The notes beneath the pieces were generated by a model, which saw nothing but the letters and a program-made list of their open reading frames with translations, made no database searches and was not told the DNA's origin. The position numbers and the translations under genes are program-made. A stretch of DNA of 64,000 bases, taken from Calothrix sp. FI2-JRJ7. GTDB taxonomy: Bacteria > Cyanobacteriota > Cyanobacteriia > Cyanobacteriales > Nostocaceae. The stretch spans positions 1 to 64,000 of the forward strand of contig JAHHGX010000014.1 in the NCBI GenBank assembly GCA_019359675.1, written 5' to 3'. Below are positions 31,273 to 61,213 of this stretch, in pieces (positions within the stretch are counted from its first letter, which is position 1; each line of letters opens with the position of its first letter).

Positions 31273-31349
31273 TGTAGTTGTAGAAACATAAAAAAGTTGT
31301 ACAATAAATAAAAAAGTTGTACAACAAATAAAAAAGTTATACAATTTAT
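31273..31349 (+). repeat. glmS-proximal transposon end with four TnsB-like sites
   Basis: Four copies of AGTTGTA (last AGTTATA) begin at 31276, 31295, 31315 and 31335, a 19-20 bp period. The last three sit in full 20-bp tandem units starting AAAAAAGTTGTACAA. Tn7 has the same layout, with four closely packed TnsB sites at the end next to glmS and tnsA. The terminus is most likely the TGT at 31273, 20 bp after the glmS stop, or the TGT at 31279; Tn7 inserts about 25 bp after the stop. The exact terminal base is not proven. Confidence 0.7.
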
Positions 31350-31389
31350 CCTATGGGTGAGTATCAACCGCCCATAGGAGATTTTATTT

Positions 31390-32208
31390 ATGGCGAGAAC
31401 CAAGCAAGGGTGGACAGCAGCAAAGTTTGAGCGCTACATGAAGGAAGGTCGAGGTCAGGGTTGTGGGAGAGATTATCAACCTTGGTTTAAGATTCAGGAT
31501 TTTCCTTCAAAGAGTAGGGTATCCAGACCACCTGGTTGGAAAACCAATCGAGAGCATCATCTCTTCTCTGATTATGAGAAGCGACTATTTTATTTGTTTG
31601 AGTGGTCAGACAGTATTATTGATATTAGGGAGCAATTCCCCTTACTCGACCTTGACCTAGCAATGAACATCGCGACGGAAATGGGAATAGAGTATCCCAA
31701 AGAGAAAGAGAGCAATACTCCTCATGTTTTTACTACTGGCTTTATGTTATCTGTAAAGCAAGGCAAGCAAACAGTTCAAAAAGCTCGAACTTTCAAGTTA
31801 GCTAAGGATTTAGGAACTAAATTAGTGGCTGAAGAGCTAGAGTTAGAAAGACGTTATTATGCAGCACAGAGAATTGATTGGGGAATTATTACAGAAAAAG
31901 ACATTCCTATAATTTTAGCAGAGAATGTCGAATGGGTTCATTCCAGCTATAAGTTAGAAGCAACAGCCAAAATAAATGTGAATGACTTAATCAGTATAGC
32001 TAAAATTTTAAAGTCAAAACTTCAAGAAAATGATTCTAATATTAATCATATTACACAAGCTTTAGATATAGATATGAATTTAGAAGTGGGTACAAACCTT
32101 TATCTTTTTAGGCATTTAATAGCGAATAAGCAAATAATTATGGATATGGAAACTAGTAAAATATCTACTGTTATGTCTGCTAGCAAAATTCAAAGAATAA
32201 TTTTCTGA
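31390..32208 (+). CDS. tnsA: TnsA endonuclease, catalytic Asp replaced by Gly
   Basis: TnsA is the PD-(D/E)xK endonuclease that cuts the 5' strands so Tn7 excises fully. The 272-aa protein has the normal N-terminal nuclease domain and C-terminal winged helix. E63 is present in FSDYEKRLFYLFEWSDS, the same number as in Tn7 TnsA, and the following SIIDIREQFPLL is canonical. Where the family has TTDF (D114 in Tn7), this protein reads FTTGFML with G117 (codon GGC at 31738, one base from GAC). Lys residues of the KARTFKLAKDL block remain. Loss of the Asp should abolish cleavage and lead to cointegrate products. It begins 40 bp inside the last TnsB-like site. Confidence 0.93.
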   Translation: MARTKQGWTAAKFERYMKEGRGQGCGRDYQPWFKIQDFPSKSRVSRPPGWKTNREHHLFSDYEKRLFYLFEWSDSIIDIREQFPLLDLDLAMNIATEMGIEYPKEKESNTPHVFTTGFMLSVKQGKQTVQKARTFKLAKDLGTKLVAEELELERRYYAAQRIDWGIITEKDIPIILAENVEWVHSSYKLEATAKINVNDLISIAKILKSKLQENDSNINHITQALDIDMNLEVGTNLYLFRHLIANKQIIMDMETSKISTVMSASKIQRIIF

Positions 32209-32228
32209 AATTTATTTATGGTGCTGTT

Positions 32229-34457
32229 ATGAGTAATTATTTGTGTGTTAATGACCTAATTGAATGGTTGGACGAATCAGGAAACAGTTTTGTCGAGAGG
32301 GTTCTCTGGATTGATGAAGGTTATGTTATGGCCTTTACGATTGATATAAATGCCAAAACTGGATTTCCAGTTTCCAAATCTATTTTTAATATTCAAGAAA
32401 GTATTAATGAAGGTCGTGCATTAAAGTTGAAATCAGACCCTTGGGCAAAAATAGTTAGAGATGGAGATTTATCTCATAAAGAAAAAGAAATTAGAGATAA
32501 ATATTGGGATATTATATCATCTATAGTTATTCAGGAACCATTGGTATACTATCGAGAAAAACGTGGTTATTTAATTAAGCAAGTCATTGAGCAATATAAC
32601 AGTGCTAGAAGCGAAGGAAAATTAATTGAAAAAACAGTTTATAAGTTGATTAGAAGATATTGGCAAAGGGGTAAAGAGAAAAATTCTCTTTTACCTGACT
32701 ATTCAAATTCGGGTGGTAAAGGAAAGCCAAAAGCTTCTGGAGAGAAAAAAAGAGGTAGACCAAGAAAGTATTCTCATGAACCAGAAATCGGCATTGGAAT
32801 TAACATCACGGAGGAAGATAAAAAAATCTTTAGATTAGCAATTACTAAATTCTATCACAATCGTAAAGAGAATTTTTTAATCACCGCTTATGAGTTAATG
32901 ATTAAAAATTATTATTCAGAAGAAATAATTTATAGTGAGGATGGCGTTAAAAAACATTTATTAATACCGCCAGATAAAAGACCAACCTTGACACAGTTTA
33001 AATACTGGTATGAAGTTGAACAAGGGGATATTAGGAAAAAAATAATTTCTCGCAAGGGAGCTAAAAAATATGCTCTGGAACATAGGGCTATTATCGGAAA
33101 CTCCACAATGGAGACTAATGGTCCAGGTTCTAGATATCAAATAGATGCCACTATTGCAGATGTGTACCTAGTTTCTGCTTACAATCGTAACTGGATTATT
33201 GGTAGACCTGTTATCTACGTAGTTATTGATGTTTTTAGCCGTATGATAACTGGAGTTTATGTTGGATTAGAAGGTCCTTCTTGGATAGGAGCAATGATGG
33301 CTTTGGCGAATGCAGCTGGTAACAAAGTAGTATTTTGCAGAGAATACGGTATCAAGATTGTAGAAGATGAGTGGCCTTGTCATCATATTCCTGATGCGAT
33401 TTTAGGTGATCGCGGCGAGTTAGCAGGAATGAAAGTGGAAACGCTAATTCCCAATCTAGGCATTCGTATTGAAAATGCTGCACCCTACCGAGCAGATTGG
33501 AAAGGTCTGGTGGAGAGACATTTTCGTACTATACACGGCCATGTTAAACCATTTGTGCCAGGTTATATAGACAAGGATTTTAGAGAGAGAGGAGCAAGAG
33601 ACTACCGACTTGATAGCAAGCTTGATATAGAGCAATTTACAGAAATTATTATCAAAATTATTCTCTATCATAACAATCAACATTATTTAGATGAATATAA
33701 AAGAGATGAGACCATGATAGCTGATAATGTCTCTCTCATACCTAGGGAATTATGGAAGTGGGGAATTGCTAATCGTTCGGGTAAACTTAGAACTTTCTCG
33801 GAAGATATTGTAAAGTTGAATTTAATGCCAACAGCAAATGCAACAATTACGGAACGAGGCATTAAGTTTAAAGGAATGTACTATACTTGTGAAAAAGCTA
33901 AACAGGAATTTTGGTTTGAAAAAGCTAGAAGCGGTTCACTTTCAAGATTAGACAAAAAGTTAGAAGTTTCTTATGATATTAGGAAACCTGATTATATATA
34001 TCTTCGCTCTCCTGATGGTAGAAATTTTGAAAAATGTTTTCTTTTAAAATTGGAAGAAAGATATTGTCAAAAAAATCTACATGATATTGAATATTTATTG
34101 GCTTATGACGAGCTACAAAGGCAGAAAAATCAAGGAATAGAGCAACAAAATAAAGTGGACTTAATTACAGATATTGAAAGTGTGGTGAGTAGAGCAAAGA
34201 AAATGACAGAGGGGACAAAAGATGATAAGCTCAGTAATAGAAAACAAGTTGCCGATATTCGAGAGAATAGAAGTACTGAAAAAAATCAAAGACGAGAAAG
34301 TGAAGGCTTTGAGTTGGAAAAAGCTGAAATTGAAAATAGTAGCAATACCGTTGATATTGATAATAAAAACTTAGAGCAGCCACAATCATTAAAACCTAAC
34401 CACCTCGATATGCTACGTCAGAATCGACAGGAACGAAAATATGGACAAAACAAATGA
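32229..34457 (+). CDS. tnsB: TnsB DDE transposase
   Basis: The 742-aa transposase joins 3' transposon ends to target DNA. The rve catalytic core shows D306 (YQIDATIADV), D394 (ILGDRGELAG) and E429 (KGLVERHF), a DD(35)E triad, all intact. The N-terminal part carries helix-turn-helix DNA-binding segments and a basic KKRGRPRKYS stretch near residue 170. The C-terminal 100 residues are charged and end QNRQERKYGQNK, a TnsC-interaction tail in Tn7. It follows tnsA by 20 bp and overlaps tnsC by 17 bp. Confidence 0.96.
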   Translation: MSNYLCVNDLIEWLDESGNSFVERVLWIDEGYVMAFTIDINAKTGFPVSKSIFNIQESINEGRALKLKSDPWAKIVRDGDLSHKEKEIRDKYWDIISSIVIQEPLVYYREKRGYLIKQVIEQYNSARSEGKLIEKTVYKLIRRYWQRGKEKNSLLPDYSNSGGKGKPKASGEKKRGRPRKYSHEPEIGIGINITEEDKKIFRLAITKFYHNRKENFLITAYELMIKNYYSEEIIYSEDGVKKHLLIPPDKRPTLTQFKYWYEVEQGDIRKKIISRKGAKKYALEHRAIIGNSTMETNGPGSRYQIDATIADVYLVSAYNRNWIIGRPVIYVVIDVFSRMITGVYVGLEGPSWIGAMMALANAAGNKVVFCREYGIKIVEDEWPCHHIPDAILGDRGELAGMKVETLIPNLGIRIENAAPYRADWKGLVERHFRTIHGHVKPFVPGYIDKDFRERGARDYRLDSKLDIEQFTEIIIKIILYHNNQHYLDEYKRDETMIADNVSLIPRELWKWGIANRSGKLRTFSEDIVKLNLMPTANATITERGIKFKGMYYTCEKAKQEFWFEKARSGSLSRLDKKLEVSYDIRKPDYIYLRSPDGRNFEKCFLLKLEERYCQKNLHDIEYLLAYDELQRQKNQGIEQQNKVDLITDIESVVSRAKKMTEGTKDDKLSNRKQVADIRENRSTEKNQRRESEGFELEKAEIENSSNTVDIDNKNLEQPQSLKPNHLDMLRQNRQERKYGQNK

Positions 34458-36123
34458 TTGGAAATGGGTTAAAATTCCAGATGGCGAATATGCTGCTTTA
34501 GCTACATATAATGACCACAAATTAGCGGAGTACAATAATCCTTTGATTCAAGCATTGCCTCCAATTCTTTCTGGAGAAGAATTTATTAGAAAAGTGGCGG
34601 TATATCCAAGTTATGCTCCTGAAGAAAGAGAATTGGATGCACATCATCGATTTCACTGCGTAGAAAGATTATCTAGATTCTTTGAACCGTTAAATAAAAC
34701 AATTAATTTACAGCAGGTAGTTTGTGCATTACTCATGCAAGGCTACCTAGCACGGAATATTTATAAACCAGAATATGCGCGTCGCTCTAGGCAAATTTAT
34801 GAAGCGATAAAGGTAGGAGGTGGCAAAAACTTAGAACATTATGTAAATATTCCCACATCTGCATCTGGCTTAACATTAATCGGTCCATCAGGAATGGGCA
34901 AATCAACTAATTTTATCCATATTCTTAAGTTATACCCTCAAGTTATCCTTCACCCAGAATACAGTACTTACCAAATTGTTTGGTTAAAAGTTGATTGTCC
35001 TCATGCTGGTTCTCTAAAAGGCTTATGTACAGATATATTTCTTGCTGTAGATAAGTTATTAGGAACTAACTATTTCAATAAATTCGGCGCCTCTAGAAAC
35101 TCTGAAGATTATATGCTGGCTCAAGTTGCTCAAATTACCCATACGCATCATCTGGGAGTTTTGGTGATTGATGAGATGCAAAATTTAGTGACAGCAAGAA
35201 GAAGTTGCTCTGATATGTTAAACTTCTTGGTAAAAATGGATAATATAGTTGGAGTTCCTGTTATTCGTATTGGGACAAATGAAGCTTTTCCAATTCTCCA
35301 AGGTAATTTTAGAAATGCTAGGAGGGGAACTGGCGAAGGCAGCGTGATATGGAACAGGATGATGAAGGATGATGAATGGGATTATTTCATGGAAGGAATG
35401 TGGGAATATCAATGGACAAAAATATCTACTTCTTTCTCCGATGAAATTAATGAAGTTTTCTATGAAGAAAGTCAAGGAATTATTGATATTGCTATTAAAC
35501 TTTACAAAATGGTACAGTGGAGAGCTATTTCACTTGCTGGGAAAGAGGTAATAAATGTTAATTTAATCAAAGATGCCGCCAAGGACGGACTGTATTTAGT
35601 AAAACCAATGCTAGATGCTATTCGCTCAGGGGATGAGGAATGGATGATTAAGTACAAAGATATAGCTTCTATCGATACTACACCATATCAAAATCAGTGT
35701 TTGTCTAATATTGAAACTAAAGATTTAAAAGAAATTAGCAGATTAGCGAGGAAACAGCAAACTAATGGAAATTTATCAGCAACCATTAGACATATAATTA
35801 TTCAGCTTCTCGAGTTAGATGTTGAGCCACGATTAGCTAAAGAGTGTGCAGAGAAAGTTGTTAGTTCGAGCGATGAAGAAACGAATATTTCTTTGCTAGT
35901 AAAACAAGCCTATGCTTTAGCTTTAGAGGGGGGTAAGGAAAATATAGCTAAAGTCATTACTCATAAAATAAAAGTCAAGCCTAAGTATGAAGATAATGAT
36001 ATTCGACAAATTGCAGAGAATGCAAATAAGAATAAAACTGCTGCATACGAAGGATTAAAATCAGCACAATTAATTAAAAATCCAGTTGATGATTTTATTT
36101 CTTTTGGTTATTACAATGCTTAG
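34441..36123 (+). CDS. tnsC: TnsC AAA+ ATPase
   Basis: The 560-aa regulator assembles on target DNA and links the target selector (TniQ or TnsD) to TnsA/TnsB. Walker A is LIGPSGMGKST around residues 147-156 and Walker B is LGVLVIDEMQNL around 235-245. The first 110 residues resemble the Tn7 TnsC N-terminal domain. The C-terminal 150 residues are helical and lysine-rich. Its start overlaps tnsB and its end overlaps tniQ by 8 bp, so tnsA-tnsB-tnsC-tniQ is one operon. Confidence 0.95.
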   Translation: MDKTNDWKWVKIPDGEYAALATYNDHKLAEYNNPLIQALPPILSGEEFIRKVAVYPSYAPEERELDAHHRFHCVERLSRFFEPLNKTINLQQVVCALLMQGYLARNIYKPEYARRSRQIYEAIKVGGGKNLEHYVNIPTSASGLTLIGPSGMGKSTNFIHILKLYPQVILHPEYSTYQIVWLKVDCPHAGSLKGLCTDIFLAVDKLLGTNYFNKFGASRNSEDYMLAQVAQITHTHHLGVLVIDEMQNLVTARRSCSDMLNFLVKMDNIVGVPVIRIGTNEAFPILQGNFRNARRGTGEGSVIWNRMMKDDEWDYFMEGMWEYQWTKISTSFSDEINEVFYEESQGIIDIAIKLYKMVQWRAISLAGKEVINVNLIKDAAKDGLYLVKPMLDAIRSGDEEWMIKYKDIASIDTTPYQNQCLSNIETKDLKEISRLARKQQTNGNLSATIRHIIIQLLELDVEPRLAKECAEKVVSSSDEETNISLLVKQAYALALEGGKENIAKVITHKIKVKPKYEDNDIRQIAENANKNKTAAYEGLKSAQLIKNPVDDFISFGYYNA

Positions 36124-37066
36124 TTTTTTCCCAATTTTTTATTCTGATGAGCTTTTATATAGTGCTTTAGCGCGATATCACATCCGGAGTGGCAATAAAA
36201 GCTTTAGACAAACTGACTTAGAATTATTTGGCTACAGTTCTCAGCAAGTATCAAAAATTACTTTAACTAATAATTTGAATTATTTAGTTAAAAACTTATC
36301 TTTCTTTTATCGTCAAACGTTTGATGTTTTGTTACAAAATCATACTTTATACCCTTTTTATGCAACTTTCTTAACACCACAAGAAGCTTGGCTGTTAAAA
36401 GACTCAATGAAAAAGAAGCTAAGTGGCTCGATTTTAGAGGTTGCAAAAGTTGCTACCAACTCTACAGGTGACTCAAGAAAATTTTTAAAATTTTGTCCTA
36501 CCTGTTTAAAGGAAGACGAAGAAAAATATGGTGAACCTTACTGGCATCGCTTACATCAAATTCCCGGTGTGTTAGTTTGCTCCGAGCATTCAGTTCCATT
36601 GCTGGATAGTTCTATCCCGATTGAGTCTAAAGCTACACAGTACCATTCTGCAAGCTTGGAAAATTGTGATATTAGTATAAGCGTCATACATTATACAGAT
36701 AGTACTTTAGAGAAATTATTAAATTTAGTTAAAGATATTGAGTGGTTGCAAAATCGCAAAATAGAATTTAAAGGTTTGGCTTGGCTTCGCAAGAAATACC
36801 AGTCATGTTTAATAAGTCAAGGGTATATTAGTTTATTACCTGGTAACAAAATAGTCTTTGACGAACAGGTATTTTTTGATAGAATTTTTGATTTCTATGG
36901 TAAAGATTTTTTAGATGCTATAGACCTCAATCTATGTACAAATCGAGGTAAGTATTTTAAATATTGCCTACTTGGTTGTGACATCAATCCAGTTATCGAC
37001 CGTGTTACTCACATCTTGTTGGTTAAATTTATAACAAATAATTTTATCGAGTTTTTTCGTAGCTAA
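36116..37066 (+). CDS. tniQ: TniQ, Cascade-associated target selector
   Basis: The 316-aa protein is a short TniQ: MLSFFPIFYSDELLYSALAR followed by YHIRSGN, a zinc-ribbon KFCPTCLKEDEEKYGEPYWH, and LVCSEHSVPL. Short TniQ proteins bind Cascade in type I CASTs and recruit TnsC to crRNA-directed sites. Start at 36116 is chosen because the family begins right there and it overlaps the tnsC stop by 8 bp. Its N-terminal 200 residues are clearly paralogous to the long TnsD-type protein at 44.3 kb. It precedes cas6 by 165 bp. Confidence 0.93.
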   Translation: MLSFFPIFYSDELLYSALARYHIRSGNKSFRQTDLELFGYSSQQVSKITLTNNLNYLVKNLSFFYRQTFDVLLQNHTLYPFYATFLTPQEAWLLKDSMKKKLSGSILEVAKVATNSTGDSRKFLKFCPTCLKEDEEKYGEPYWHRLHQIPGVLVCSEHSVPLLDSSIPIESKATQYHSASLENCDISISVIHYTDSTLEKLLNLVKDIEWLQNRKIEFKGLAWLRKKYQSCLISQGYISLLPGNKIVFDEQVFFDRIFDFYGKDFLDAIDLNLCTNRGKYFKYCLLGCDINPVIDRVTHILLVKFITNNFIEFFRS

Positions 37067-37231
37067 TATTTTTTTAATGTTTAAATTAACCACTCTTTAA
37101 TAAATTTTACGTATGTGAATAATTAGTTTGAAAAAGTTATTGCTCATCAGTAAAAACTACAGATACTTTAAAGAAGTAAGTTTGAATCAGCTTAAAGTTG
37201 GTGTATTTGCTTAAATTTAAGGTGCAATGAA

Positions 37232-37963
37232 ATGGAAGAAGTTATTATAGCTTGTAACCTACCTACGCAAGCTAATACAAGGGTAATTCCTATAGAGGCT
37301 CTGCCTAGAAGGGATTTTCAGTCTTACATACCCTACTTTGACTTAAGCTTTAGCCTTATTGGTAAAACTGTAGATATAGACCACGGGCATAAATTGTTTT
37401 CCGCCCTATCGTATTTAGTTCCTGCAATTCACGAAATAGATTCGATAGCAATTCACACTATTGCTGGCATTCCTGATGATAATGGCCAGCTTAAGCTGAC
37501 TAAAAATTCTAGGCTTCGTATCCGCTTGAGCGCAAATAACATAGACCTCGTTTATTCCCTTGCTGAAAAGTCTTTAAATATTGGCACGCATACTGTTCAG
37601 TTGGGCGTTCCTCAGATATACCCACTCCAGCCTAAAGATAAACTGTGCGCGCGTATCGTAGTTATAAGACCTTATCAGCAACCAGAGCCATTTCTAGCCG
37701 CAGCACGGCGCCAGTTGGAAAAGCTTGGTATTCAAGGAATTGCGACTATACCGACAGATAGGCAAGGAAATCCTAAACGTCGAAGTATAAAAGTTAATGG
37801 TTTTACTGTTGTTGGTTTTACGCTAGAGGTTTCAAATCTTAGCGAAGAAGATTCTTTAATTTTACAGAGATACGGCATCGGAGGAAAATCTAAGATGGGT
37901 TGTGGAATATTTGTACCAGTCAAGGAAAGAACAGAGAAAGTGCTTGAATATTATGCCAATTGA
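37232..37963 (+). CDS. cas6: Cas6 crRNA endoribonuclease
   Basis: The 243-aa protein has the Cas6 double ferredoxin-like fold with the C-terminal glycine-rich loop GIGGKSKMGCGIFVP. A candidate catalytic His lies in DHGHKLFSALSYLVP near residue 50. It cleaves the repeat to release crRNA with an expected 5' handle UUGAUAAC from the adjoining array. cas8 starts 11 bp before this stop. It opens the cas6-cas8-cas7-cas5 operon. Confidence 0.9.
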   Translation: MEEVIIACNLPTQANTRVIPIEALPRRDFQSYIPYFDLSFSLIGKTVDIDHGHKLFSALSYLVPAIHEIDSIAIHTIAGIPDDNGQLKLTKNSRLRIRLSANNIDLVYSLAEKSLNIGTHTVQLGVPQIYPLQPKDKLCARIVVIRPYQQPEPFLAAARRQLEKLGIQGIATIPTDRQGNPKRRSIKVNGFTVVGFTLEVSNLSEEDSLILQRYGIGGKSKMGCGIFVPVKERTEKVLEYYAN

Positions 37964-39530
37964 TAATTTAGCTAATTCCAAAATTTCGCTAAATCTAAGT
38001 AATCCTGACATTACTTTTTTACATAGTGCAGGAATTGCAGGTCTATCGATGACCCTTGAGCGATTAGAGCAATTGTATCCTATGCCTGCTCTTCGACCAG
38101 GCAATTTAAATTGGTTGCTTACTCCCCGTAGTATTAGCTTAAATTGGGAGGGTAAAGATTTGATTGCTTTAGATTGGTTACTAAAGCAATCCTTTCAAAT
38201 TAATGATGAAGGTTTAATAAATTTTGTAGCACTAAATTATGAAAAAATAGATATTTATACTCAAATACTCATTCATCAAGGTATTACAGGCACTTTTTTA
38301 CAACATAATAATTTTTTTAAATCAGCAGGGGTAGCATCAAAATCGCTTATAATCAATGACATAAAACTAACACTTTGGTATAAGAAAGCTGCTTCTTACG
38401 CTCACCAAAACTTTGCGAATAAGTTATGCGATGAGCATGGCAATATGTTGCAGCAACATATTCGTATAGCTGGTTGGTTGTATCCAGGCGCCGTAGTTCG
38501 ACACGCAGCTTTTAACGATAAAAGCAAGTTTGAAGAAAAACCAGAATATGCTTTAGCTTTATTATTTGCTCCTGTTGCTTGTCAATATTTTGTTTTGCGC
38601 TCGCACGTTAAACCGAACCAAATGGAATACGCCCTCGTAATACCAGAAGTGACTAATTTAGAAAATTATAATGAACCTTACAATAATCATAGCAATTGGA
38701 GTTACAGTAATTTTCATGTATCAAGTTTAGGAGAGGCTGGATTAAAGTTCCTTGTTCATCAGAAAAGTGTAGAATTAGCTAGATGTCATCAAATAAAGCA
38801 ATGCCAAGTAATTTATTTTGGTGTGGTTGAATGGTCTAAGCAGCAAAAAACACCTATGGCAATGCGTCTAGTCAATGCTACAGAAACTATATGTTCATTA
38901 TATAAAATGGTTAGTAGCTACTTTCCTGAGTATAAAATACATTTATCTAAAGATAATGCTTTTATTATTAGTAGTTTTGTTAAAAGTATCATTGCTGATA
39001 ATTTGTCTAAAAACTTACCTTGGTGGAGTAATTTCTATACAACAATTAATTTTAAAAATAATCAGAATAAATTCATTTTCAATACAGTTTTTTATGAGAA
39101 TCGGAGTATATATAAAATGGTTCAAAATTCCGACTGGGATTCAGAAACACAAAAACTTTATATTCAGCTTTGTCAAGAAGCGCTCAAAAAAAGGTATGCT
39201 AAAATTTACAGTCAGACGCAAGAAGGAGAATATACTCAAATCGAACGAGAAAATATGCGTATACTGTCTCAATTAAAACTTTGTATAAGTTATGAAAAGT
39301 TCCGAAAGTTTATAACACAATTTATTGGAGAAGCAGGTAAACTTACTATTTTAGAAACCCATTGGCAGGAATTACTGCCAATAGTTAGTGGAGAAACAGA
39401 TTGGAAATTAGCAAGAGATTTATTTTTTATTGCTCTTGCCGGCTATCCAAGAAGTCAGGCGATAGATGCCTCGGCACATGAAGAAAAATACACTGTTAAC
39501 AACAGTAGCGGAACTCATGTTAATAAATAA
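37953..39530 (+). CDS. cas8: Cas8 (Cmx8-like) large Cascade subunit
   Basis: The 525-aa protein starts MPIDNLANSKISLNLSNPD, and the segment FLHSAGIAGLSMTLERLEQLY is typical of Cmx8/Cas8 of the I-B (MYXAN-like) type. It should read the PAM and hold the crRNA 5' end. No HD nuclease or helicase is fused, and no cas3 is nearby. The ATG at 37953 overlaps cas6 by 11 bp and matches the family start; an in-frame ATG at 37902 would run through the end of cas6. Confidence 0.88.
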   Translation: MPIDNLANSKISLNLSNPDITFLHSAGIAGLSMTLERLEQLYPMPALRPGNLNWLLTPRSISLNWEGKDLIALDWLLKQSFQINDEGLINFVALNYEKIDIYTQILIHQGITGTFLQHNNFFKSAGVASKSLIINDIKLTLWYKKAASYAHQNFANKLCDEHGNMLQQHIRIAGWLYPGAVVRHAAFNDKSKFEEKPEYALALLFAPVACQYFVLRSHVKPNQMEYALVIPEVTNLENYNEPYNNHSNWSYSNFHVSSLGEAGLKFLVHQKSVELARCHQIKQCQVIYFGVVEWSKQQKTPMAMRLVNATETICSLYKMVSSYFPEYKIHLSKDNAFIISSFVKSIIADNLSKNLPWWSNFYTTINFKNNQNKFIFNTVFYENRSIYKMVQNSDWDSETQKLYIQLCQEALKKRYAKIYSQTQEGEYTQIERENMRILSQLKLCISYEKFRKFITQFIGEAGKLTILETHWQELLPIVSGETDWKLARDLFFIALAGYPRSQAIDASAHEEKYTVNNSSGTHVNK

Positions 39531-39550
39531 AAAATTACAATTTTGATTAT

Positions 39551-40507
39551 TTGAGCGATTCTTGTATGTTTCATTTATTTGGCAATATCCTGACCCGCTA
39601 TGGGACAGCAGCTAATAATCGTGGACAGAATGAAGGTAACTTAAGCCCGTTAAAAAAATTAATATGGAAAGGAGAAGTTCATAGTTATGTTTCATCCGAA
39701 GCGATACGGTTTTCTTTAAGACATTACTGGCAAGAAAGCGGTTATAACGTTAATCGAAGTTGGGATGAGGATAATCAAGATAATAATTGGCAAAATCCTG
39801 ACTTCGACCCAGTTACTTTTATTGATGATGATGTCCTAGGATATATGAAAGCAGAAGCTGCCAAAATAGAAATTTCAGATGAAATTGATGTTGGCGAAGA
39901 GATAGAAACTAAACCATCAGAAGAACAAAAAGCGAAGAAAAAACGTAAACCTAAGCCTAAAGGAACAATTCGACCTAGACGAGGAGCATTGGAGGTTGTC
40001 CATGCAGTATCAACCCTTCCTTACTTTGATGATATTACTTTTAATGCTGCTAGTGGAGCAAAAGGACGAACGTCTTTATACAGTACAGAATTTCATGCAA
40101 CATCTTACCAGTATGGTTTCGCGCTAACACCAGAACATCTGAAGAATAAATCTCGCATTAACGCTGTGTTAGATGGTTTTATTTCAATTGGTAGAGTTGC
40201 AGGAAACAATGCTCGTTTTCGTTTTGATTACTCTCCTAGCATTATTGTATTACGCTGGACGCATGATTTTTCACCTCGCTTTTTTTATTGCTTTGAGCAA
40301 AATCAATTGGGACAGGTATCAATTTCAGATTTAGTCGAAACAGTTCAAGCAGGAGACATCGACCCAAAGGAATTATGGGTTGGTGGGGTAAAAAATTTTG
40401 AAATATTACAAGATTTGGGAATGAATGTATTTCCAGGGGTCAAAAGTGCAGTTACAGCATTAAAACAAGTTATTGCAGAAGATTTACAACTACCTTTAGG
40501 GAGTTAA
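39551..40507 (+). CDS. cas7: Cas7 (DevR-like) Cascade backbone
   Basis: The 318-aa protein matches the DevR/Cas7 family, with FHLFGNILTRYGTAANNRGQ at the N-terminus, then WKGEVHSYVSSEAIRFSLRH, and later GFISIGRVAGNNARFRFDYS. It polymerises along the crRNA spacer. A basic insertion KKKRKPKPKGTIRPRRGALE around residue 140 is a likely RNA-contacting loop. The first codon is TTG at 39551; an ATG at 39566 (MFHLFGN) is an equally good start. It precedes cas5 by 5 bp. Confidence 0.92.
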   Translation: MSDSCMFHLFGNILTRYGTAANNRGQNEGNLSPLKKLIWKGEVHSYVSSEAIRFSLRHYWQESGYNVNRSWDEDNQDNNWQNPDFDPVTFIDDDVLGYMKAEAAKIEISDEIDVGEEIETKPSEEQKAKKKRKPKPKGTIRPRRGALEVVHAVSTLPYFDDITFNAASGAKGRTSLYSTEFHATSYQYGFALTPEHLKNKSRINAVLDGFISIGRVAGNNARFRFDYSPSIIVLRWTHDFSPRFFYCFEQNQLGQVSISDLVETVQAGDIDPKELWVGGVKNFEILQDLGMNVFPGVKSAVTALKQVIAEDLQLPLGS

Positions 40508-40512
40508 TTTAG

Positions 40513-41145
40513 GTGACTACTATTGTATTAAAAGTTGAAGTACCCATAGCATGTTTTCGTCAGTCCCGCTCTAGGGAGTATATAGAAACTTATCCAGTAC
40601 CACCACCATCAACAATGTATGGAATGCTACTATCTCTAGTAGGAGAAGAGAATAGGTCTAAACATTGCGGCGTAAAGCTTGCGATGGCACTCCTTTCTGA
40701 ACCAGAAAAATCTGTGACGCTTCGGACGTTTCATAGATTTAAAAAAAGCAATATTGACGCATCGGAAAACGTGAAACCTGACTTTCAAGAGTTATTAACA
40801 GATGTAAAATTAGCTGTTTGGATAAATGCAGGCATAGACAGAGCCAGACCAACTCTGCCAGAAAGATTAGAACAGGCTTTTGTAAATCCTGCTTCTGTTA
40901 ACCGCTTTGGCGGTTTATGCTTAGGCGAAAGCCGGGATTTAGTTAATGTTGTTAAAGTTTTATCTGAGAAAGATAAGATTGAATTTTTAAAGTGGTTGGT
41001 TAAAGATGAGGATGGTTCATTAGTTCTCCCATATTGGGTAGACCATGTTGGCTCGAAAGGAACGCGCTGCTTGCGCTACTTACTCCAACAGTCCGCACAT
41101 CAGCAACCACCGGAGTTAGCGTGGACAACTATTCAAAAAGATTAG
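40513..41145 (+). CDS. cas5: Cas5 (DevS-like) Cascade subunit
   Basis: The 210-aa protein begins with GTG and has the Cas5 N-terminal signature: LKVEVPIACFRQSRSREYIE, then TYPVPPPSTMYGMLLSLVGE. A RAMP-type glycine-rich stretch is in NRFGGLCLGESRDLVN. Cas5 caps the crRNA 5' handle. It is the last cas gene before the array. Confidence 0.9.
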   Translation: MTTIVLKVEVPIACFRQSRSREYIETYPVPPPSTMYGMLLSLVGEENRSKHCGVKLAMALLSEPEKSVTLRTFHRFKKSNIDASENVKPDFQELLTDVKLAVWINAGIDRARPTLPERLEQAFVNPASVNRFGGLCLGESRDLVNVVKVLSEKDKIEFLKWLVKDEDGSLVLPYWVDHVGSKGTRCLRYLLQQSAHQQPPELAWTTIQKD

Positions 41146-41409
41146 TAAGTATCATCACTTTTTGCAAGCACCCGCGCTTGGTAAGTTTCAAGACAATCAA
41201 GAATAGCTGTTTCCTTTACAATTAAAGGAGTCTAGGGCATTTATATTTCTCATAGTTGCTTGCAATCGGCTGAAAGCTAGAAATAATAAGCCTTATGAGC
41301 TTTGAAAAATTATTTTGATTATTAAATTTTGCAAATTTAGTTATCTGAATGGCAGGTACTTGTAAAATTGGTCTAGAGCTTTGGTCAACCCTCGGTTTTA
41401 GAGAGTGCC
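41146..41409 (+). promoter_or_regulatory. CRISPR leader region
   Basis: 264 bp of AT-rich sequence between cas5 and the first repeat have no gene and should carry the array promoter. No element is certain. Confidence 0.5.
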
Positions 41410-41589
41410 CTGCTCCAGCATCAGATGTCGTTAGGCGTTGATAACTGGTCGATTCCATAGCGCTCCGCGAACTGGGCACTTCTGCTCCAGCATTAGATGT
41501 CGTTAGGCGTTGATAACTTATCGAAAGATTGCGCGCATTTTTAATCAACTAATCTGCTCCAGCATTAGATGTCGTTAGGCGTTGATAAC
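41410..41589 (+). CRISPR. three-repeat, two-spacer CAST array
   Basis: 36-nt repeats at 41410-41445, 41482-41517 and 41554-41589 start CTGCTCCAGCATTAGATG and end TCGTTAGGCGTTGATAAC. The first differs by one base (CATCAG for CATTAG); the last two are identical. Both spacers (41446-41481 and 41518-41553) are exactly 36 nt. The repeat end TTGATAAC fits an 8-nt Cas6 5' handle on the plus strand, the same direction as the cas genes. Without cas1/cas2 the array cannot acquire spacers by itself. I find no target of either spacer within this window. Confidence 0.95.
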
Positions 41590-41636
41590 ATTTTTGGGAA
41601 TAAAGACACGTCTAGGCGAATAAAATGCGTAACAGC

Positions 41637-43439
41637 TTATTTTATCAATTCAAATTTTAAATCTTTGCCCATTGCCTTACCTATAAGGTACATGAGTTCT
41701 TCTGCTCTGGCTTGGAAAAATTCTTCAAAATTATCCCGTTGCAAAATATTGAGTTCAATGTAGTGCGATCTTAATATCTCGTCTAAGCTTGCGACTGCCG
41801 TACCCTGGTGTTCAAATTCCTTCAAATAAACTGAAGGAGCTTTACTACCAATTGTTTTATTCGTTTTGGCACTTAGGGGAGTGCGGTTAACTAAGCAATT
41901 GTACATTTTGGGGTCAATTCCTTGTTTACGACACCAAGCGACGGGAAAAATATGGTGCGAGTCGATTTGTTCCTCAAAATAAATGACGTCGTTAATTTCT
42001 TCGCCAGTCATCCAATCCACGGCGCCTTCACGCCGCAGTAAGGCCGCAAATCCTTGATACACGGCGCCAAGCCGTTTTCTAACACTAAGGAGTCTTTCAA
42101 ACGAGAAATTTGCTTGAGTAATACCGAAAGGAACCGCACCACCATTAATCCATGCTAGGACTTCGACAACATCTCTTCCTGCCTGTCCATCATGCCAGTA
42201 GGTATAAATTTCCCCAAACATCCCGCACCACAACCATTGTTCAAGCATACCTCGTACTTGGAAAGAGCGGGAACGTTCACTAAGAATAGTTAAAATTGCA
42301 CTCAAGGCAACTAACTGGATGGGATAAGCAACATCATTCGCATCGAAAATTTTTTGACCGTGTAGAAAACGAGCGGCTTCTTCAAACCCTTTATGAACAG
42401 GGTCAGCCCATGTTTGATATTCTTCTTTGGTTAGCTTTAAAACTTCGGAGCGACCGCAAGCTACACCGGGTAATTTGTCTAAATTCCACCCTTGTCTAGC
42501 AGCTTCCATTCTGCGGGTGTAACCAGCAACCAAGGTTACTGCTTGAATAAAATCGGTGTTGCGTACCTTTCGTAACACTTTGAAGGATTTAAAGCGGGCT
42601 TCACGCTGTTTCCAATCATCTCGCAGGCTAAAATCGTCTACGCAGTAACTCGAACTCATTAAATCGAAGAAGTTAAGGTCGCATCCGGCAGTGTTAGTGT
42701 CTTCAAAAACCTGACACACTGCTTCTTTAGGTAATGAATCACGCAATTGAATTACAGGTATTTGATAATGCTCAAACTTTTTAAGCACTTCTAATTCTAA
42801 AGCGTCAATTAATTGGAGTTTTTGCGGGTCGTACTGCCAATACTTAGAAAATTTACTACGCCATTCGGAAAAAAAGAATACCTTAGATAAGGGGAATAAT
42901 TGGGCTTCGTATTCATGTTCAGGTGTGGAACAGTTAATAAAATCACCATTGCGAGTCCGCATAAGTTTATTTTCGGGTAATCCTATAATGGCGGATTTTC
43001 TGTCTGCTTCCGGTTCGAGACTTTTTTCAATGTCCAGGTAGTACCATTTTTTGAATAATCCTTGGTTTTTGGAGTTTTTGATGACAACGGGTTGCTCAGA
43101 TAGCAGCACCATGAATAAAGTCGTTAGTCTCTGTTGCCCGTCGAGTAGAAGTAGGTTTGGCAATTGAGGCGCCGAATTTTTGACACCATCAAGTAAGCGA
43201 GGTTTAAATTGTTGATGCTGGGCGCCTTGTTGTAGCATCATGACTGCACCAATTGGGTAAGCCAAAGATATACTTGCTAACAAACGTCGTACATGGATAT
43301 CGTCCCATACCCAATCCCGTTGAAAATCTGGTAGTTGAATACGCCCTGTTTTGATGTCCTTCATGACATCGAATAGGGGGTACTTGGTCATATCAAAAGT
43401 CGAAATCGAATCCATTGATGGTTCTGTAAGCATTATCAT
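41637..43439 (-). CDS. DUF262/HNH (GmrSD-like) restriction protein
   Basis: The 600-aa protein has the DUF262 ParB-like nuclease/NTPase fold at the N-terminus: IKTGRIQLPDFQRDWVWDD, then RRLLASISLAYPIGAVMMLQ, then LLLDGQQRLTTLFMVL. The C-terminal part holds a DUF1524-like HNH site, EQIDSHHIFPVAWCRKQ, then YNCLVNRTPLSAKTNKTIGS. This architecture occurs in GmrSD-type modification-dependent restriction enzymes and related phage-defence proteins. It lies within the CAST but carries GGCGCC at host-like density (four in 1.8 kb), unlike tns/cas genes. It is a likely cargo defence gene. Its start is about 250 bp from two TTGCCA palindromes. Confidence 0.85.
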   Translation of the reverse strand: MIMLTEPSMDSISTFDMTKYPLFDVMKDIKTGRIQLPDFQRDWVWDDIHVRRLLASISLAYPIGAVMMLQQGAQHQQFKPRLLDGVKNSAPQLPNLLLLDGQQRLTTLFMVLLSEQPVVIKNSKNQGLFKKWYYLDIEKSLEPEADRKSAIIGLPENKLMRTRNGDFINCSTPEHEYEAQLFPLSKVFFFSEWRSKFSKYWQYDPQKLQLIDALELEVLKKFEHYQIPVIQLRDSLPKEAVCQVFEDTNTAGCDLNFFDLMSSSYCVDDFSLRDDWKQREARFKSFKVLRKVRNTDFIQAVTLVAGYTRRMEAARQGWNLDKLPGVACGRSEVLKLTKEEYQTWADPVHKGFEEAARFLHGQKIFDANDVAYPIQLVALSAILTILSERSRSFQVRGMLEQWLWCGMFGEIYTYWHDGQAGRDVVEVLAWINGGAVPFGITQANFSFERLLSVRKRLGAVYQGFAALLRREGAVDWMTGEEINDVIYFEEQIDSHHIFPVAWCRKQGIDPKMYNCLVNRTPLSAKTNKTIGSKAPSVYLKEFEHQGTAVASLDEILRSHYIELNILQRDNFEEFFQARAEELMYLIGKAMGKDLKFELIK

Positions 43440-43724
43440 CGTGTAAATTTGTCAAATATCTATTTAAAAAATTGTGCGGCTGCAAAGTTAAGCCTTCGCC
43501 TATCGCCTAAAAACCTTTGCATTGATTACAGGTTGTTATTATTTAAGTTCCTAACGAGCAGTCACTAAATGCTTAATTTTTCAGATAAAACCTAAAATTA
43601 ACAATTTGACAATATCGAGAAGGATGATAATTGAGGGCATGAGCGTATATAAACTGAGCTTACACAATTAACAACGATAAAATGTTTATTGCCATGATGG
43701 CAATAAACTCTTGCCATTTGGCAA
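43440..43724. promoter_or_regulatory. promoter region of the DUF262 gene with two palindromic operators
   Basis: TTGCCATGATGGCAA (43689-43703) and TTGCCATTTGGCAA (43711-43724) are perfect palindromes 22 bp apart centre to centre. A third copy (44072-44085) precedes the small HTH gene. The rest of the 285 bp is AT-rich without a gene. Confidence 0.6.
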
Positions 43725-44066
43725 TTAAGAATTGTTAAGATTTTTACGTGATTTTTGACGATACATTTCTCGAAGCCTTTGTAGGTACTCTGGCTCTGTA
43801 TCAATTGCAGTCCAAATGTGGTTTACCAAAGCTAGGCGCTGTTTATGCTTTTCGCTTGGCGTTCTCCGGTCAGTCCCTTGGGAAAACCAGTGGTTGACTG
43901 TTGTTAAGGAGCAGTCGCAAATAAAAGCTAATTCCTCTCGTGACACTTCCCAGTGCCGAAGAAACTCGTCGAGTTCCATCAAATACTCGTCCAGGGGGTT
44001 TAGGTATGCGTTGAACGCATCCCAGTGTCTCTGAGTTGGAATTTTCGGAGCAATACCCATAGCCAT
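43725..44066 (-). CDS. small helix-turn-helix regulator
   Basis: The 113-aa protein has a central helix-turn-helix-like segment, EELAFICDCSLTTVNHWFSQ, followed by a helical C-terminal region. It points leftward to the DUF262 gene. Palindromes TTGCCA..TGGCAA lie 6 bp before its start and right after its stop, so it is a good candidate for a self-regulating repressor that also controls the DUF262 gene. That binding is inferred from position only. I do not recognise a named family. Confidence 0.75.
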   Translation of the reverse strand: MAMGIAPKIPTQRHWDAFNAYLNPLDEYLMELDEFLRHWEVSREELAFICDCSLTTVNHWFSQGTDRRTPSEKHKQRLALVNHIWTAIDTEPEYLQRLREMYRQKSRKNLNNS

Positions 44067-44071
44067 TTATG

Positions 44072-44085
44072 TTGCCATTTGGCAA
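44072..44085. promoter_or_regulatory. TTGCCATTTGGCAA operator at the HTH gene start
   Basis: A perfect 14-bp palindrome identical to the one at 43711-43724 sits 6 bp upstream of the HTH start codon on the minus strand, where a repressor would block transcription or initiation. Confidence 0.6.
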
Positions 44086-44317
44086 TAAACAGAGGCATCA
44101 TAACTTATGATTACAACAATTGTCTTTACGCAAATGTGGTAAGAACCCTATTCCCAGGTAAGCATCAATACTTTAGTTGTGCCTAGTGGCTCCGGCTGAT
44201 AGTACAAATGCTTTACTTAGCAACTAATATAAGCTTATTTTTTAGCTTCTTCAGGACGCTCCCCCTACATTTGCCCTCGTATATTTAGCAAAGTAAAATA
44301 AACCCGTATCAAAATTT

Positions 44318-46234
44318 ATGTTGAGATTTTTTCCAAATCCATACCCTGATGAAATTTTGTACAGTATGATTGCTCGTTACCACATAAGGAGTGGCAACAT
44401 TAGCCCAAAAATAACACAGCAAGAAGTGTTTAACTCACAATCTACTGTAGCTACTGCTGATTTACCTTCTAACTTGGATGCATTAATTGATAACCTTAAA
44501 TATATCTCTAACTATCAAATAGAAAATTTTATATATAAACATACTCTTTTCCCTTTTTATCATCCTTTTCTCCCTCCCCAACGAGGTGTGCAAGTAATAG
44601 AATCGATGAAGGGAGAAAATGGAGGCGATATTCATACTAAAATTGGGATTACAGCAAGTTCTATTGCTATGCCAAGCTATTTTCGCTTTTGCCCAAAATG
44701 CCTCGAAGAAGATTTAGAAAACTATGGGGAGCCTTACTGGCATAGATTACATCAAATTTCTGGAGTTCTAGTTTGCCAAAATCATCAAGTCTTTTTACAA
44801 AATAGTACTGCTACCTTACATGGATTAAACAAACATGAATACTATGCAGCCAGCTTAGAATGTTGTATTGCAAATCCAAATCAACAAAATTTTAGCAATC
44901 ACACACTAAAAAAACTAACTTTACTAGCTCAGGATATTGAGTGGTTGATAAATAATAAACTTCCGTCACAAGATGCAAGGTGGTTTGACAAACAATACAA
45001 ATTTTTATTGATTCAGAAAGGTTTAGCCAATGCTAATGGTAGAGTCAAATTGAAACAACTATTAGATGAATTTATCTTTTTCTATGGGCGTGAAATGCTC
45101 GGTGCCTTAGATTCAATGGTTGATTATGAAGATGAATCTAATTGGTTATTTGCAATCGTCAGAAAACATAGAAAATCATTTCATCCAATCAGACATTTAC
45201 TATTTATTCGCTTTTTGACCGAGGCGGTCGCAGAGTTTTTTACGGCAGATTACCAATATAAACCATTTGGTAATGCGCCTTGGTTATGTCTCAATGCTGC
45301 GGCAGACCATTATTTGCAACCTGTTGTAACTAATTTGACAGTGACTCATTGCCTGGAAAATAAAAGACCTCTGGGCACCTTTTTCTGTGACTGCGGGATG
45401 ATTTATTGTCGAACGGGTCCAGATAAAACTGAACAGGACAAACTGCGAATTGGCAAAATCATTCAATTTGGTTCGGTTTGGGAGAAGAAACTGAAAGACT
45501 TAGTGGAGGTGCAACGGTTAAGTTTGCGGGAAACAGCCAGACAAATGAATGTTGATGCTAAAACTGTGTGCCGTTATGTATCAAAGCTGAAACTGAGAAG
45601 CTGTTGGAAAACTTTGAAAAATACCCAATTCACAGAATTTGAAAATATCCCCGAACCGAATACAGATTCTGCGACTGCCATTCAACTTCAACATCGAGCA
45701 GCTTGGCTTGGTTTACAGCAACAGCACCCAAAGGCTTCTAAAACGAGTCTGAGAAAGATGTCTCCAGCTACTTATATTTACCTGTATAGGAACGATAGAG
45801 AATGGTTGTATCAGAACTCGCCTAGCCTTCGGAAGCCTATTTCTAGCATTGTTAAAGTAGATTGGGATGAAAGAGATAAGCACATACTCAAGAAGGCGAT
45901 GGATACCGTGCAGTCGCTTCTTAATCAAGAAAAACTTGTGAGAATCAACAAAAGCAGGATTGCGAAAAATATAGGCTCACTTGCACTCATTGAAAAGCAT
46001 CTCGATTTAATGCCATTGACAAAAGCCTATTTGGAGTCTGTAACAGAAACCATAGAAGAATTTCAGATACGCCGCATTAAATGGGCAATTAAGCGGCTTG
46101 ATGATTGTGGCGAAGAGATTCTAGCTTGGAAGGTGCTTCGGTTAGCAGGATTGCGCGAAAATTACACCGAGAAAGTAAATGTAATCCTTGAGAGTCTCCG
46201 CTATCAACCAGAAAAAAGCGTGCTACCACATTAA
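44318..46234 (+). CDS. tnsD: TnsD-type long TniQ protein for glmS homing
   Basis: The 638-aa protein starts like TniQ (MLRFFPNPYPDEILYSMIAR, then YHIRSGN) with zinc ribbon FRFCPKCLEEDLENYGEPYW and LVCQNHQ. It then adds about 320 residues: a second cysteine cluster (FFCDCGMIYCRTG, near residue 360), a helix-turn-helix (SLRETARQMNVDAKTVCRYV) and a helical C-terminal region typical of TnsD. TnsD binds the 3' end of glmS in Tn7 and type I-B1 CASTs. The element sits at that site, which fits. It lies apart from the tnsABC-tniQ operon, after the cargo genes. Confidence 0.92.
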   Translation: MLRFFPNPYPDEILYSMIARYHIRSGNISPKITQQEVFNSQSTVATADLPSNLDALIDNLKYISNYQIENFIYKHTLFPFYHPFLPPQRGVQVIESMKGENGGDIHTKIGITASSIAMPSYFRFCPKCLEEDLENYGEPYWHRLHQISGVLVCQNHQVFLQNSTATLHGLNKHEYYAASLECCIANPNQQNFSNHTLKKLTLLAQDIEWLINNKLPSQDARWFDKQYKFLLIQKGLANANGRVKLKQLLDEFIFFYGREMLGALDSMVDYEDESNWLFAIVRKHRKSFHPIRHLLFIRFLTEAVAEFFTADYQYKPFGNAPWLCLNAAADHYLQPVVTNLTVTHCLENKRPLGTFFCDCGMIYCRTGPDKTEQDKLRIGKIIQFGSVWEKKLKDLVEVQRLSLRETARQMNVDAKTVCRYVSKLKLRSCWKTLKNTQFTEFENIPEPNTDSATAIQLQHRAAWLGLQQQHPKASKTSLRKMSPATYIYLYRNDREWLYQNSPSLRKPISSIVKVDWDERDKHILKKAMDTVQSLLNQEKLVRINKSRIAKNIGSLALIEKHLDLMPLTKAYLESVTETIEEFQIRRIKWAIKRLDDCGEEILAWKVLRLAGLRENYTEKVNVILESLRYQPEKSVLPH

Positions 46235-47224
46235 CCTCGCAAAGCAAGATTCCCAACTCTCAAAAAATCGGGAATCTAAAATTGAATTCAGCTATGCAGC
46301 AAACAATCCATTCGCCGCAATAATAAATGCTTGTGCTGCGTCAGGAGTGTCGCAACAAAGTTAGTTTTAGTCATGGCAAGTACAGGTTTGACAGGTGCTG
46401 CTGCAATTAATGCAGCTTTTGCCTTTTTGGGTTATCCTGCGGGAATATTAGGGTTTATTACGGTATTGGCTACAGATGCCTTGGCTAAAGTCTTTTATAA
46501 TGTATGAGCTTTTGAGGTGGCATTGGCGCCCTCTCAGCTTCAGAATTATTTTTTAACCGCCCATAGAAGCGTTATAGTGGGGGGTTCGTAGGCTGGATTC
46601 ATCGCAAAGGATTAAATTCCACGATTTTGCGTTTTCAACAGAGATTTTACTTAAGAGCAGGAAACTTTATTGTCATCGGGTAGTCTAAGTAGGAGATAAC
46701 TTATTTTTGACAAATGTATCTTTTTTATCCTGTTTTAAATCTGTGTTATCGTAAGATGTATCATCAGTATTACTACTGAAGGCGCATAATAAATTTAATG
46801 CTAGTTTTAAACTGATAAGATTACCACTCTTACGCAAGATTTGGCTATCTGTCGCTTTTTAATTATCTATTTCGGACTTTTTTTGCTGTTCTGTTGGTTT
46901 CTGATATTTATTTGTACTATTAAATTTAATACTCTATCTTAATAAAGATAGATGGTCTAAATAGGCTATCTCTATGATAGGCATGGGCTAGTTTAGACGA
47001 AATCAGTATAATTTAATACTTATAAAACTTATTTTTTTAAAGTCAGGGTAGTAATTTTACCTCTAGGGCAATTAGAATTAATCACTGCTTACATCTGCAA
47101 GTAATTGCTTGGCAGCTATTTTTGGTTACAAAAATTTTGTTGCTAAAAAATTTACTAGCGGCTGAGTTGTGCTGTGCTTTGTCAAGAAGGAGGTGTTTGT
47201 AAATTAGCTGGGGAGAAGTGGGTG
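46235..47224. other. gene-poor region between tnsD and DISARM, candidate distal CAST end
   Basis: 990 bp contain only one 44-codon frame. Three stretches resemble the reverse complement of the glmS-side TnsB sites: near 46713-46736 (AATGTATCTTTTTTAT), 46907-46920 (ATTTATTTGTACTA) and 47018-47037 (ACTTATAAAACTTATTTTTT). Spaced sites in inverted orientation are what a Tn7 left end shows, but the matches are weak. An 8-bp hairpin TCTATCTT / AAGATAGA (46933-46952) and a GTCTAAA / TTTAGAC inverted repeat (46955-46998) are also present. Confidence 0.4.
46373..46507 (+). CDS. 44-residue small hydrophobic protein
   Basis: A 44-codon frame begins MASTGLTGAAAINAAFAFLG and continues through a Gly/Ala/Ile-rich hydrophobic stretch (YPAGILGFITVLATDALAKV) to a TGA. 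Composition is that of a small membrane or pore-like peptide. It lies 139 bp after tnsD. No clear ribosome site (a weak GTTAGTTTTAGTC precedes the ATG) and no known family, so it may be a chance frame. Confidence 0.4.
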   Translation: MASTGLTGAAAINAAFAFLGYPAGILGFITVLATDALAKVFYNV

Positions 47225-50446: not shown

Positions 50447-50523
50447 CTCTTGTGGAGCAGGCATCACGAACTGCATAAACAAGTTTATTTTTTATGAAAT
50501 TAAAAAATTTCGAGTGATAAAAA

Positions 50524-54480: not shown

Positions 54481-54498
54481 ATATGTTGATATTTTTTT

Positions 54499-54756
54499 AT
54501 GGTGTCATACACTCTACGATTTTATGTGCTGCATAAAATTGAGATTGAAAAGGTGCCGGAAATATCGGGATTATTCTGGGTAAAGCACAACTATATCAAA
54601 GTACACAAAATGCAATTTATCACTGATACAATAATTACTGAAATTACCCAACGTATCGTAAACAAACTAAATCCTGAACAAATTATTTTTTCTTTCTTTT
54701 CTTCCTTTGCGAACTTTGCGTCCTTTGCGGTTCGTTGTACTAAAAACGGATTATAA
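54499..54756 (+). pseudogene. fragment of a nucleotidyltransferase (MNT-like) gene
   Basis: Within an 85-codon frame, FITDTIITEITQRIVNKLNP followed by EQIIFSF resembles the N-terminus of a minimal nucleotidyltransferase up to the IILFGSYA motif. The frame then runs into CTTTGCG-type repeat sequence before the GSxxxG catalytic motif appears. This is a truncated relic within the DISARM operon. Confidence 0.45.
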
Positions 54757-54895
54757 CTTTATTTTTAGAAAATGTGAAAATATTTAAGATGCTACCCTAC
54801 GGGAAAACTCCGTTTACGTTCCTCAGCATGACAGAAGTTTAGTATTTTAACCGTTTGCAGTTTGCGGTATATATTTATTTTAATAAAAATACATT
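54757..54895. other. short spacer before drmA
   Basis: 139 bp without a gene; together with the relic upstream it makes the largest gap (415 bp) in the DISARM operon, so drmA may have its own promoter. Confidence 0.5.
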
Positions 54896-58291: not shown

Positions 58292-58372
58292 GGGCGGGTT
58301 AACCAACAACCCAAAACAAAACCAAAAATGTCATAAACCTACCCTTCCCAACCAACCCACATAAAAAACCTA

Positions 58373-61034: not shown

Positions 61035-61086
61035 AAGTATTTTGACGGCTTTCAAACCCATTGAATATTAAATTCATCTGTACTAT

Positions 61087-61118: not shown

Positions 61119-61213
61119 TATTTACTAAGAGAACTCCACAGAATAATTGATCTTTAGTTCGGACTCACCGACCAACACTAACACTGCGTATGTGCTGTGG
61201 GACTCCTTGCTGG

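Follow-up and report, generated by a model that had tools for sequence, protein, structure and literature searches.

The closest described systems are Tn7, which inserts about 25 bp past the stop codon of glmS, and the CRISPR-associated transposons (CASTs) of type I-B. According to excerpts of its published description (PMC11406308), the type I-B1 element AvCAST (Tn7743) has separate TnsA and TnsB proteins, a TniQ with a partial TnsD domain, a Cascade without adaptation genes and a TnsD with a glmS site; the same excerpts give type I-B2 CASTs a fused TnsAB and a tRNA site. The DNA analysed here, a stretch of 64,000 nucleotides from Calothrix sp. FI2-JRJ7 (the window; positions 1 to 64,000 of contig JAHHGX010000014.1, below C14), carries behind glmS a type I-B1 CAST, an element of a known kind. 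This copy appears larger than a first-pass annotation of the sequence had described, and seems to have a defence island system associated with restriction-modification (DISARM) as cargo. We think it very probable that the CAST inserted behind glmS, reaches from position 31279 across DISARM as far as a left end on a second contig (C58), is defective in TnsA and is now likely a resident defence island.

The element shares with AvCAST all of the features listed above, but differs in that the catalytic aspartate of TnsA is replaced, in a probable length of at least 45 kb and in its DISARM cargo. It has in common with Tn7 the glmS site and an insertion point about 25 bp past the stop, and its TnsA, TnsB and TnsD align to Tn7 chains; unlike Tn7, it has a Cascade with TniQ as a second target selector. 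The type I-B2 PmcCAST has the same kind of Cas8 and Cas11 (8fcj), but membership of type I-B2 is ruled out by the separate tnsA and tnsB genes and the glmS site. For this type I-B1 CAST, a sister genome shows the empty site, a far end is probably identified and the defence cargo is large. The interest of the element, which we judge to be moderate, rests on the TnsA change and on the fate of the cargo at glmS.

Gene content and affiliation

The core genes all lie on the + strand behind glmS, with tnsA, tnsB, tnsC and tniQ as separate genes followed by cas6-cas8-cas7-cas5, three CRISPR repeats and a long tnsD. Open reading frames (ORFs), Pfam and NCBIfam agree here with the first-pass annotation, which had named the same genes in this order and an array of three repeats.

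29369 to 31252, + strand: glmS (ORF), with the expected attachment site of TnsD at its 3' end
31274 to 31278: GTAGT, possibly a 5-bp target-site duplication; GTAGC stands at the other end, four of five bases the same
31279 to 31349, + strand: right end, a terminal TGT and then three TnsB-like sites (15-mers starting at 31290, 31310 and 31330)
31390 to 32208, + strand: tnsA (Pfam TnsA, 1.7e-23)
32229 to 34457, + strand: tnsB, DDE motif intact
34441 to 36123, + strand: tnsC, Walker A and B intact
36116 to 37066, + strand: tniQ, 316 aa (Pfam TniQ, 2.5e-28)
37232 to 37963, + strand: cas6 (NCBIfam Cas6/Cmx6)
37902 to 39530 (alternative start 37932), + strand: cas8 (NCBIfam Cas8a1/Cmx1)
39117 to 39530, + strand: probable cas11, starting at an ATG within cas8
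39551 to 40507, + strand: cas7 (NCBIfam Cas7/DevR)
40513 to 41145, + strand: cas5 (NCBIfam Cas5/DevS)
41410 to 41589, + strand: CRISPR array, three repeats and two spacers
41410 to 41445, 41482 to 41517 and 41554 to 41589: CRISPR repeats, 36 nt each
41446 to 41481 and 41518 to 41553: CRISPR spacers, 36 nt each
41637 to 43439, - strand: GmrSD_N/DUF262 protein, cargo (family match)
43725 to 44066, - strand: 113-aa ORF, by eye possibly helix-turn-helix (HTH)
44318 to 46234, + strand: tnsD, 638 aa, with TniQ and full TnsD domains (Pfam TnsD, 1.1e-119); aligns with Tn7 TnsD (8glu)

The tniQ product retains a remnant of the TnsD C-terminal domain (residues 206-315, 1.1e-4, under Pfam's cut-off). The assignment to type I-B1 draws together this short TniQ with its partial TnsD match, the separate tnsA and tnsB genes with tnsC, the type I-B Cascade, the long TnsD at glmS and the TnsB clade. 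The absence of cas1, cas2 and cas3 from the element, also noted earlier, holds for cas1 by a whole-genome search, which places it only on contigs C77 and C80 and not on C14 or C58, and for cas2 and cas3 by the gene list of 31390-46234 only, in which neither was recognised and the GmrSD_N/DUF262 gene and the 113-aa ORF are the two unassigned genes. No family was found for that ORF in three family libraries, and a scan of promoters and terminators was not above chance (25 and 2 found, against 26.1 and 6.5 in shuffles).

Among 388 genomes drawn from the order, 81 gave a Cas8 match (E <= 0.001) and 28 a TnsB match (E <= 1e-20); the loci used were 20 TnsB neighbourhoods, five more loci and five cyanobacterial ones of 17 genome-collection loci (four Nostoc-type and Iningainema). 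In the resulting TnsB tree of 31 rows (L101, with 86 aa, was left out; the outgroup consists of six of the other loci, on long branches, which do not form one clade), the window falls in a clade of six with support 96/94, together with genome G177 and the four Nostoc-type loci. All five partners sit at glmS, and each either carries cas genes or breaks off where its contig ends; L115 has cas8 and cas7 fragments only. The proposal of a type I-B1 CAST at glmS is upheld by this ancestry.

Ends and probable extent of the insertion

At the right end, AAAAAAGTTGTACAA occurs three times behind the TGT at 31279, spaced 20 bp apart and with a single change in the third copy. The element had been taken to start about 20 bp past the glmS stop, at 31273. 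We move this point to 31279, 26 nt past the stop, because TGT[AG] sits at 23-26 nt in 17 of 18 glmS-linked relatives (the window has it at 26, and another at 20), and reject the TGT at 31273, which is only 20 nt past the stop. In the 18th relative, L149, TGT[AG] stands at 22 nt and the right end is shortened; the empty site of genome G004 has it only at 12 and 17 nt and none at 23-26. The TGTAGA at 31279 also agrees with the far-end terminus, TGTAGAGG, at C58:8821. Position 46234, the earlier boundary on the other side, is merely the stop codon of tnsD.

A left end is not found in all 72,746 bases of C14. In particular, none lies just past tnsD by pattern or by weight matrix, the best other score on C14 being 13.6, with top scores of 8.8-20.6 in 20 shuffles. 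When the whole genome was searched for the TnsB-like site with one mismatch allowed, 12 matches were obtained (seven for the reversed pattern as a control): the three at 31290-31344, three on C58 and six scattered singles. The sites on C58 start at 8832, 8900 and 8944 (span 8832-8958), and their spacings of 68 and 44 bp are the same as those at the left end of the CAST in genome G392 (39101, 39033 and 38989).

On its outside, this left end, the only candidate for one, adjoins a Uma2 gene. In G004, a genome of the same genus, the same Uma2 gene (97% over 716 bp) stands about 90 bp past glmS and the insert is absent; in G006, a 111-bp trace of the Uma2 flank lies within 250 bp of glmS. The comparison of sister genomes, which the first-pass annotation had offered as a way to refute its proposal, yields an empty site and so no refutation. 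The glmS protein is 98-99% identical in four same-genus genomes and 93-94% in the remaining two. When the two flanks are joined, a hairpin with 11 pairs and a single bulge forms again; an equally good fold arose in 18 of 1000 random joins.

The insertion would take up 41,468 bp of C14 (31279-72746) and 3,618 bp of C58 (12438-8821), with a gap between the two, and would therefore measure at least 45 kb. Both contigs break at multi-copy repeats of about 127 bp, which would explain the break between them. The earlier description of a complete dual-mode element is doubtful: for completeness, the far end lies on another contig across this assembly gap and TnsA is without its catalytic aspartate, and for the dual mode, neither spacer gave a protospacer.

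By homology, we propose that the end of glmS is recognised by TnsD, which then brings in TnsC and TnsA-TnsB; this would give the observed position and the observed orientation, with the right end towards glmS. A complex of TniQ with Cas6-Cas8-Cas7-Cas5, and the internal Cas11, would instead guide TnsC to spacer-matched DNA. We infer, together with these two routes, that all of the DNA between the ends, from 31279 to the left end on the other contig, would move as one unit with DISARM as its cargo.

Probable DISARM cargo and the history of the glmS locus

Downstream of tnsD lies a class 1 DISARM operon, which the first-pass proposal for this element does not name, with the full set of DrmD, DrmMI, DrmA, DrmB and DrmC, all strong PADLOC matches; drmD, drmMI, drmA, drmB and drmC are the genes by which we take class 1 to be defined. 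What sets it apart from class 1 DISARM as such is its probable position inside the ends of a CAST, across the contig gap.

47174 to 50446, + strand: drmD (PADLOC)
50524 to 54480, + strand: drmMI, DISARM class 1 methyltransferase (PADLOC)
54896 to 58291, + strand: drmA (PADLOC)
58373 to 60235, + strand: drmB (PADLOC)
60201 to 61034, + strand: drmC (PADLOC)
61035 to 64000: putative further cargo; the element would continue to the end of C14 at 72746 and finish at C58:8821

Excerpts of a survey of Tn7-like cargo (PMC8649781) report that 26% of transposons carry known innate immune systems and list nine with minimal I-B, and the word DISARM does not occur in the main text as excerpted. Literature searches gave no title or abstract joining DISARM with CASTs or Tn7 among the matches listed. 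Outside the element, the same genome has fragments of DrmMI (83% identity) and of the DrmA N terminus (G000:C73:37158-37694 and C58:7512-7643).

Three relatives with both ends located allow the cargo to be compared. The G378 element (about 34 kb, with a perfect 5-bp duplication, ATTGT) carries Druantia-like DruE and DruL; that of G392 (about 29 kb) has DrmB, DrmA and DrmD-like genes between both ends on one contig; and that of G089 (about 32 kb, without cas genes) has pieces of a type I restriction-modification system and a PD-T4-6-like kinase. These scans covered cargo ORFs of at least 230 aa (7 of 10, 6 of 8 and 7 of 11, respectively). A fourth candidate, G177, showed no far end in 77 kb and was left out of the count. 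With the window included, multi-gene defence systems or parts of them are found in four of four bounded elements, three of them Cas-bearing, in what is a small sample.

Two of these genomes also show the locus in altered states. At glmS, G392 (L149 and L195, on G392:C90) has a CAST without tnsA, tnsB, tnsC and the first part of tniQ and with a shortened right end, which still has its cas genes, tnsD and left end and a DISARM-like cargo; the 28 genomes that gave a TnsB match do not include G392. Directly behind the first element of G378 come another right end and, about 60 bp on, another left end. This ends-only remnant behind a type I-B1 CAST (G378:C20, L193, about 42560-42760 of the joined stretch) indicates that stacking and collapse happen at the glmS site.

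The DISARM stretch recurs in G003, a further genome of the same genus, where it begins 1.1 kb behind glmS and drmC is broken; its five long pieces match window 46757-60847 at 87.8-89.6% nucleotide identity. Fourfold-site identity between the two genomes is 0.705 for glmS and 0.67-0.75 for drmD, drmMI, drmA and drmB; drmC was dropped from the comparison, its only match being a spurious one of 57 aa. This similarity suggests that DISARM probably stood near glmS in the common ancestor with G003. DrmMI gave no match at 1e-30 in G001, G004 and G006, and a match of 63% identity in G002 and G005, on contigs other than the glmS contig.

Several points weigh against a single CAST that brought DISARM with it and moves as proposed above. 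The two ends lie on separate contigs, so that continuity between them is inferred, and the flanking bases on these contigs, GTAGT at the right end on C14 and GTAGC at the C58 end, agree as a target-site duplication in only four of five positions. The left-end spacing is that of one of the three bounded relatives, G378 and G089 being spaced otherwise. For neither spacer was a protospacer found in plasmids or phages beyond chance (best E-values 4-5). DrmMI was matched in 11 of the 22 genomes in which it was sought, mostly on contigs other than that of the CAST (G378 and G392 included), and no tns or cas match was found in the 80 kb fetched around the DISARM of G003. Since DISARM is common away from CASTs and stands in G003 without a tns or cas match, it may not have arrived with the element.

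The explanation that best survives beside ours is a composite origin, in which DISARM came first behind glmS, either alone or in an older Tn7-like element that owned the left end on C58, and the CAST core was inserted later, between glmS and DISARM, and lost its own left end. We hold this to be possible. It would account for a DISARM behind glmS without tns or cas matches in G003 and for drm genes with fourfold identities like that of glmS, and the second right end in G378 demonstrates that tandem insertion at glmS does happen. However, no second right end and no left end was found on C14, either between tnsD and DISARM or elsewhere, and in G378, G392 and G089 a stretch of cargo separates tnsD from a distant left end. 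We continue to prefer a single CAST insertion from 31279 to C58. Two orders of events would fit: an older CAST brought DISARM and the core was lost in G003, or the CAST core arrived at a site that already had DISARM. A defence system at this site may thus outlast, or predate, the transposon core. The sister glmS loci, which include empty and occupied sites and one with defence genes only, let the order of delivery and decay be worked out.

TnsA and the state of the transposition machinery

Residue 117 of TnsA is glycine (codon GGC, 31738-31740) and falls, on alignment to the Tn7 TnsA structure, on the catalytic D114; the residue here is aspartate in all 25 other TnsA rows. We take the active site of Tn7 TnsA to be formed by E63, D114 and K132, and D90 of the V. 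cholerae CAST TnsA presumably corresponds to D114. Counterparts of E63 and K132 are kept, so that of the three residues needed for cut-and-paste transposition only D114 is missing. In an excerpted account of the V. cholerae CAST (PMC8188705), a TnsA D90A mutant, predicted to be without 5'-strand cleavage, gave >95% cointegrates. With glycine in this position, we predict from the sequence that 5'-strand cleavage is lost and that this copy should form cointegrates or be stuck, that is, not transpose. Whether a CAST with a natural loss of 5'-strand cleavage still moves thereby becomes testable.

The D, D and E of TnsB and the Walker motifs of TnsC are intact, and departures from columns that are invariant in all rows but one number two each in TnsA, TnsB, TnsC, TniQ and Cas6 and one in Cas5, within the range of the relatives. 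The same count is 13 for Cas8 (7 rows), 15 for Cas7 (8 rows) and 35 for TnsD (4 rows), above the nearer relatives and not above the most distant row, so that general decay is not plainly indicated.

A sequencing or assembly error in TnsA, behind which the element would be a normal cut-and-paste type I-B1 CAST, seems to us unlikely. One base would suffice to explain the glycine, and the remaining tns and cas genes are uninterrupted and of full length, with the TnsB and TnsC motifs in order; yet the neighbouring L114F also falls in a column invariant in the 17 other rows, and single-base errors are rare in assembled contigs.

On the preferred reading of a TnsA-defective CAST, the element most likely acts now as a resident defence island. 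We would extend this only tentatively, to a doubtful but wider model in which a natural type I-B1 CAST with TnsA switched off moves by copy-and-paste, forming cointegrates, or becomes a fixed defence island. Type I-B1 CASTs would then deliver large multi-gene anti-phage systems to glmS, where the defence genes would remain while the transposon part decayed, a course that might run from the window through G392, with tnsABC deleted, to G003, with DISARM alone.

Cascade, array and proposed RNA guidance

The element's Cas8 matches PmcCAST Cas8 (8fcj_I) at 1e-96. Its last part aligns with the separate PmcCAST Cas11 chain, whose start coincides with the internal ATG at 39117, with CGGAG upstream, and cas11 is thus probably encoded within cas8 from this codon. 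Related repeats lie downstream of cas5 in seven of ten CAST loci examined. The final 15 nt of the CAST repeat have exact copies at only three places in the genome, all in the window, the next best match having one mismatch; the arrays adjoining cas1 on C77 and C80 carry other repeats. The spacers matched nothing in viral contigs with every sixth base left open, and in their own genome, with three mismatches allowed, only the array itself. Such searches neither support nor refute RNA-guided movement of this copy. Of eight pattern matches to Cas8 relatives in viral contigs, none was confirmed.

The TnsB tree is less simple than a purely Cas-bearing type I-B1 clade would be, in that elements without cas genes (L124, L131 and L133) fall in the next larger clade. 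All three have a long TnsD-like gene in the tniQ-cas position; L133 lies at glmS with a second tnsD further on, and no glmS is seen beside L124 and L131 in their stretches. That the element is a plain Tn7-like transposon with the Cascade as a passenger of no role in targeting is very improbable: these neighbours without cas genes would fit it, as would L135 and L136, whose short TniQ has no cas match behind it in the fetched stretch, but a Cas6 match follows the TniQ match in nine glmS-linked relatives, and in L149 with its shortened tniQ, and the element shows no cas1 on C14 or C58 and no recognised Cas3.

Neighbouring genes and glmS copies

On the - strand at window 61214-63638, three ORFs gave no Pfam match, one of them with weak BstA and HTH profile matches. 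Beyond the window, C14:64652-71419 (L012:4653-11420) holds a cluster of trypsin-like/iSTAND, Trypco1, AAA, VWA and FGE-sulfatase genes, which resembles a conflict system, and an MT-A70 methylase is also encoded further along C14. In other genomes, partial copies of the glmS 3' end stand within about 1 kb behind glmS (G021:C26:102628-102903, G016:C30:3198-3473 and G007:C7:31045-31179) and perhaps derive from other integrating elements.

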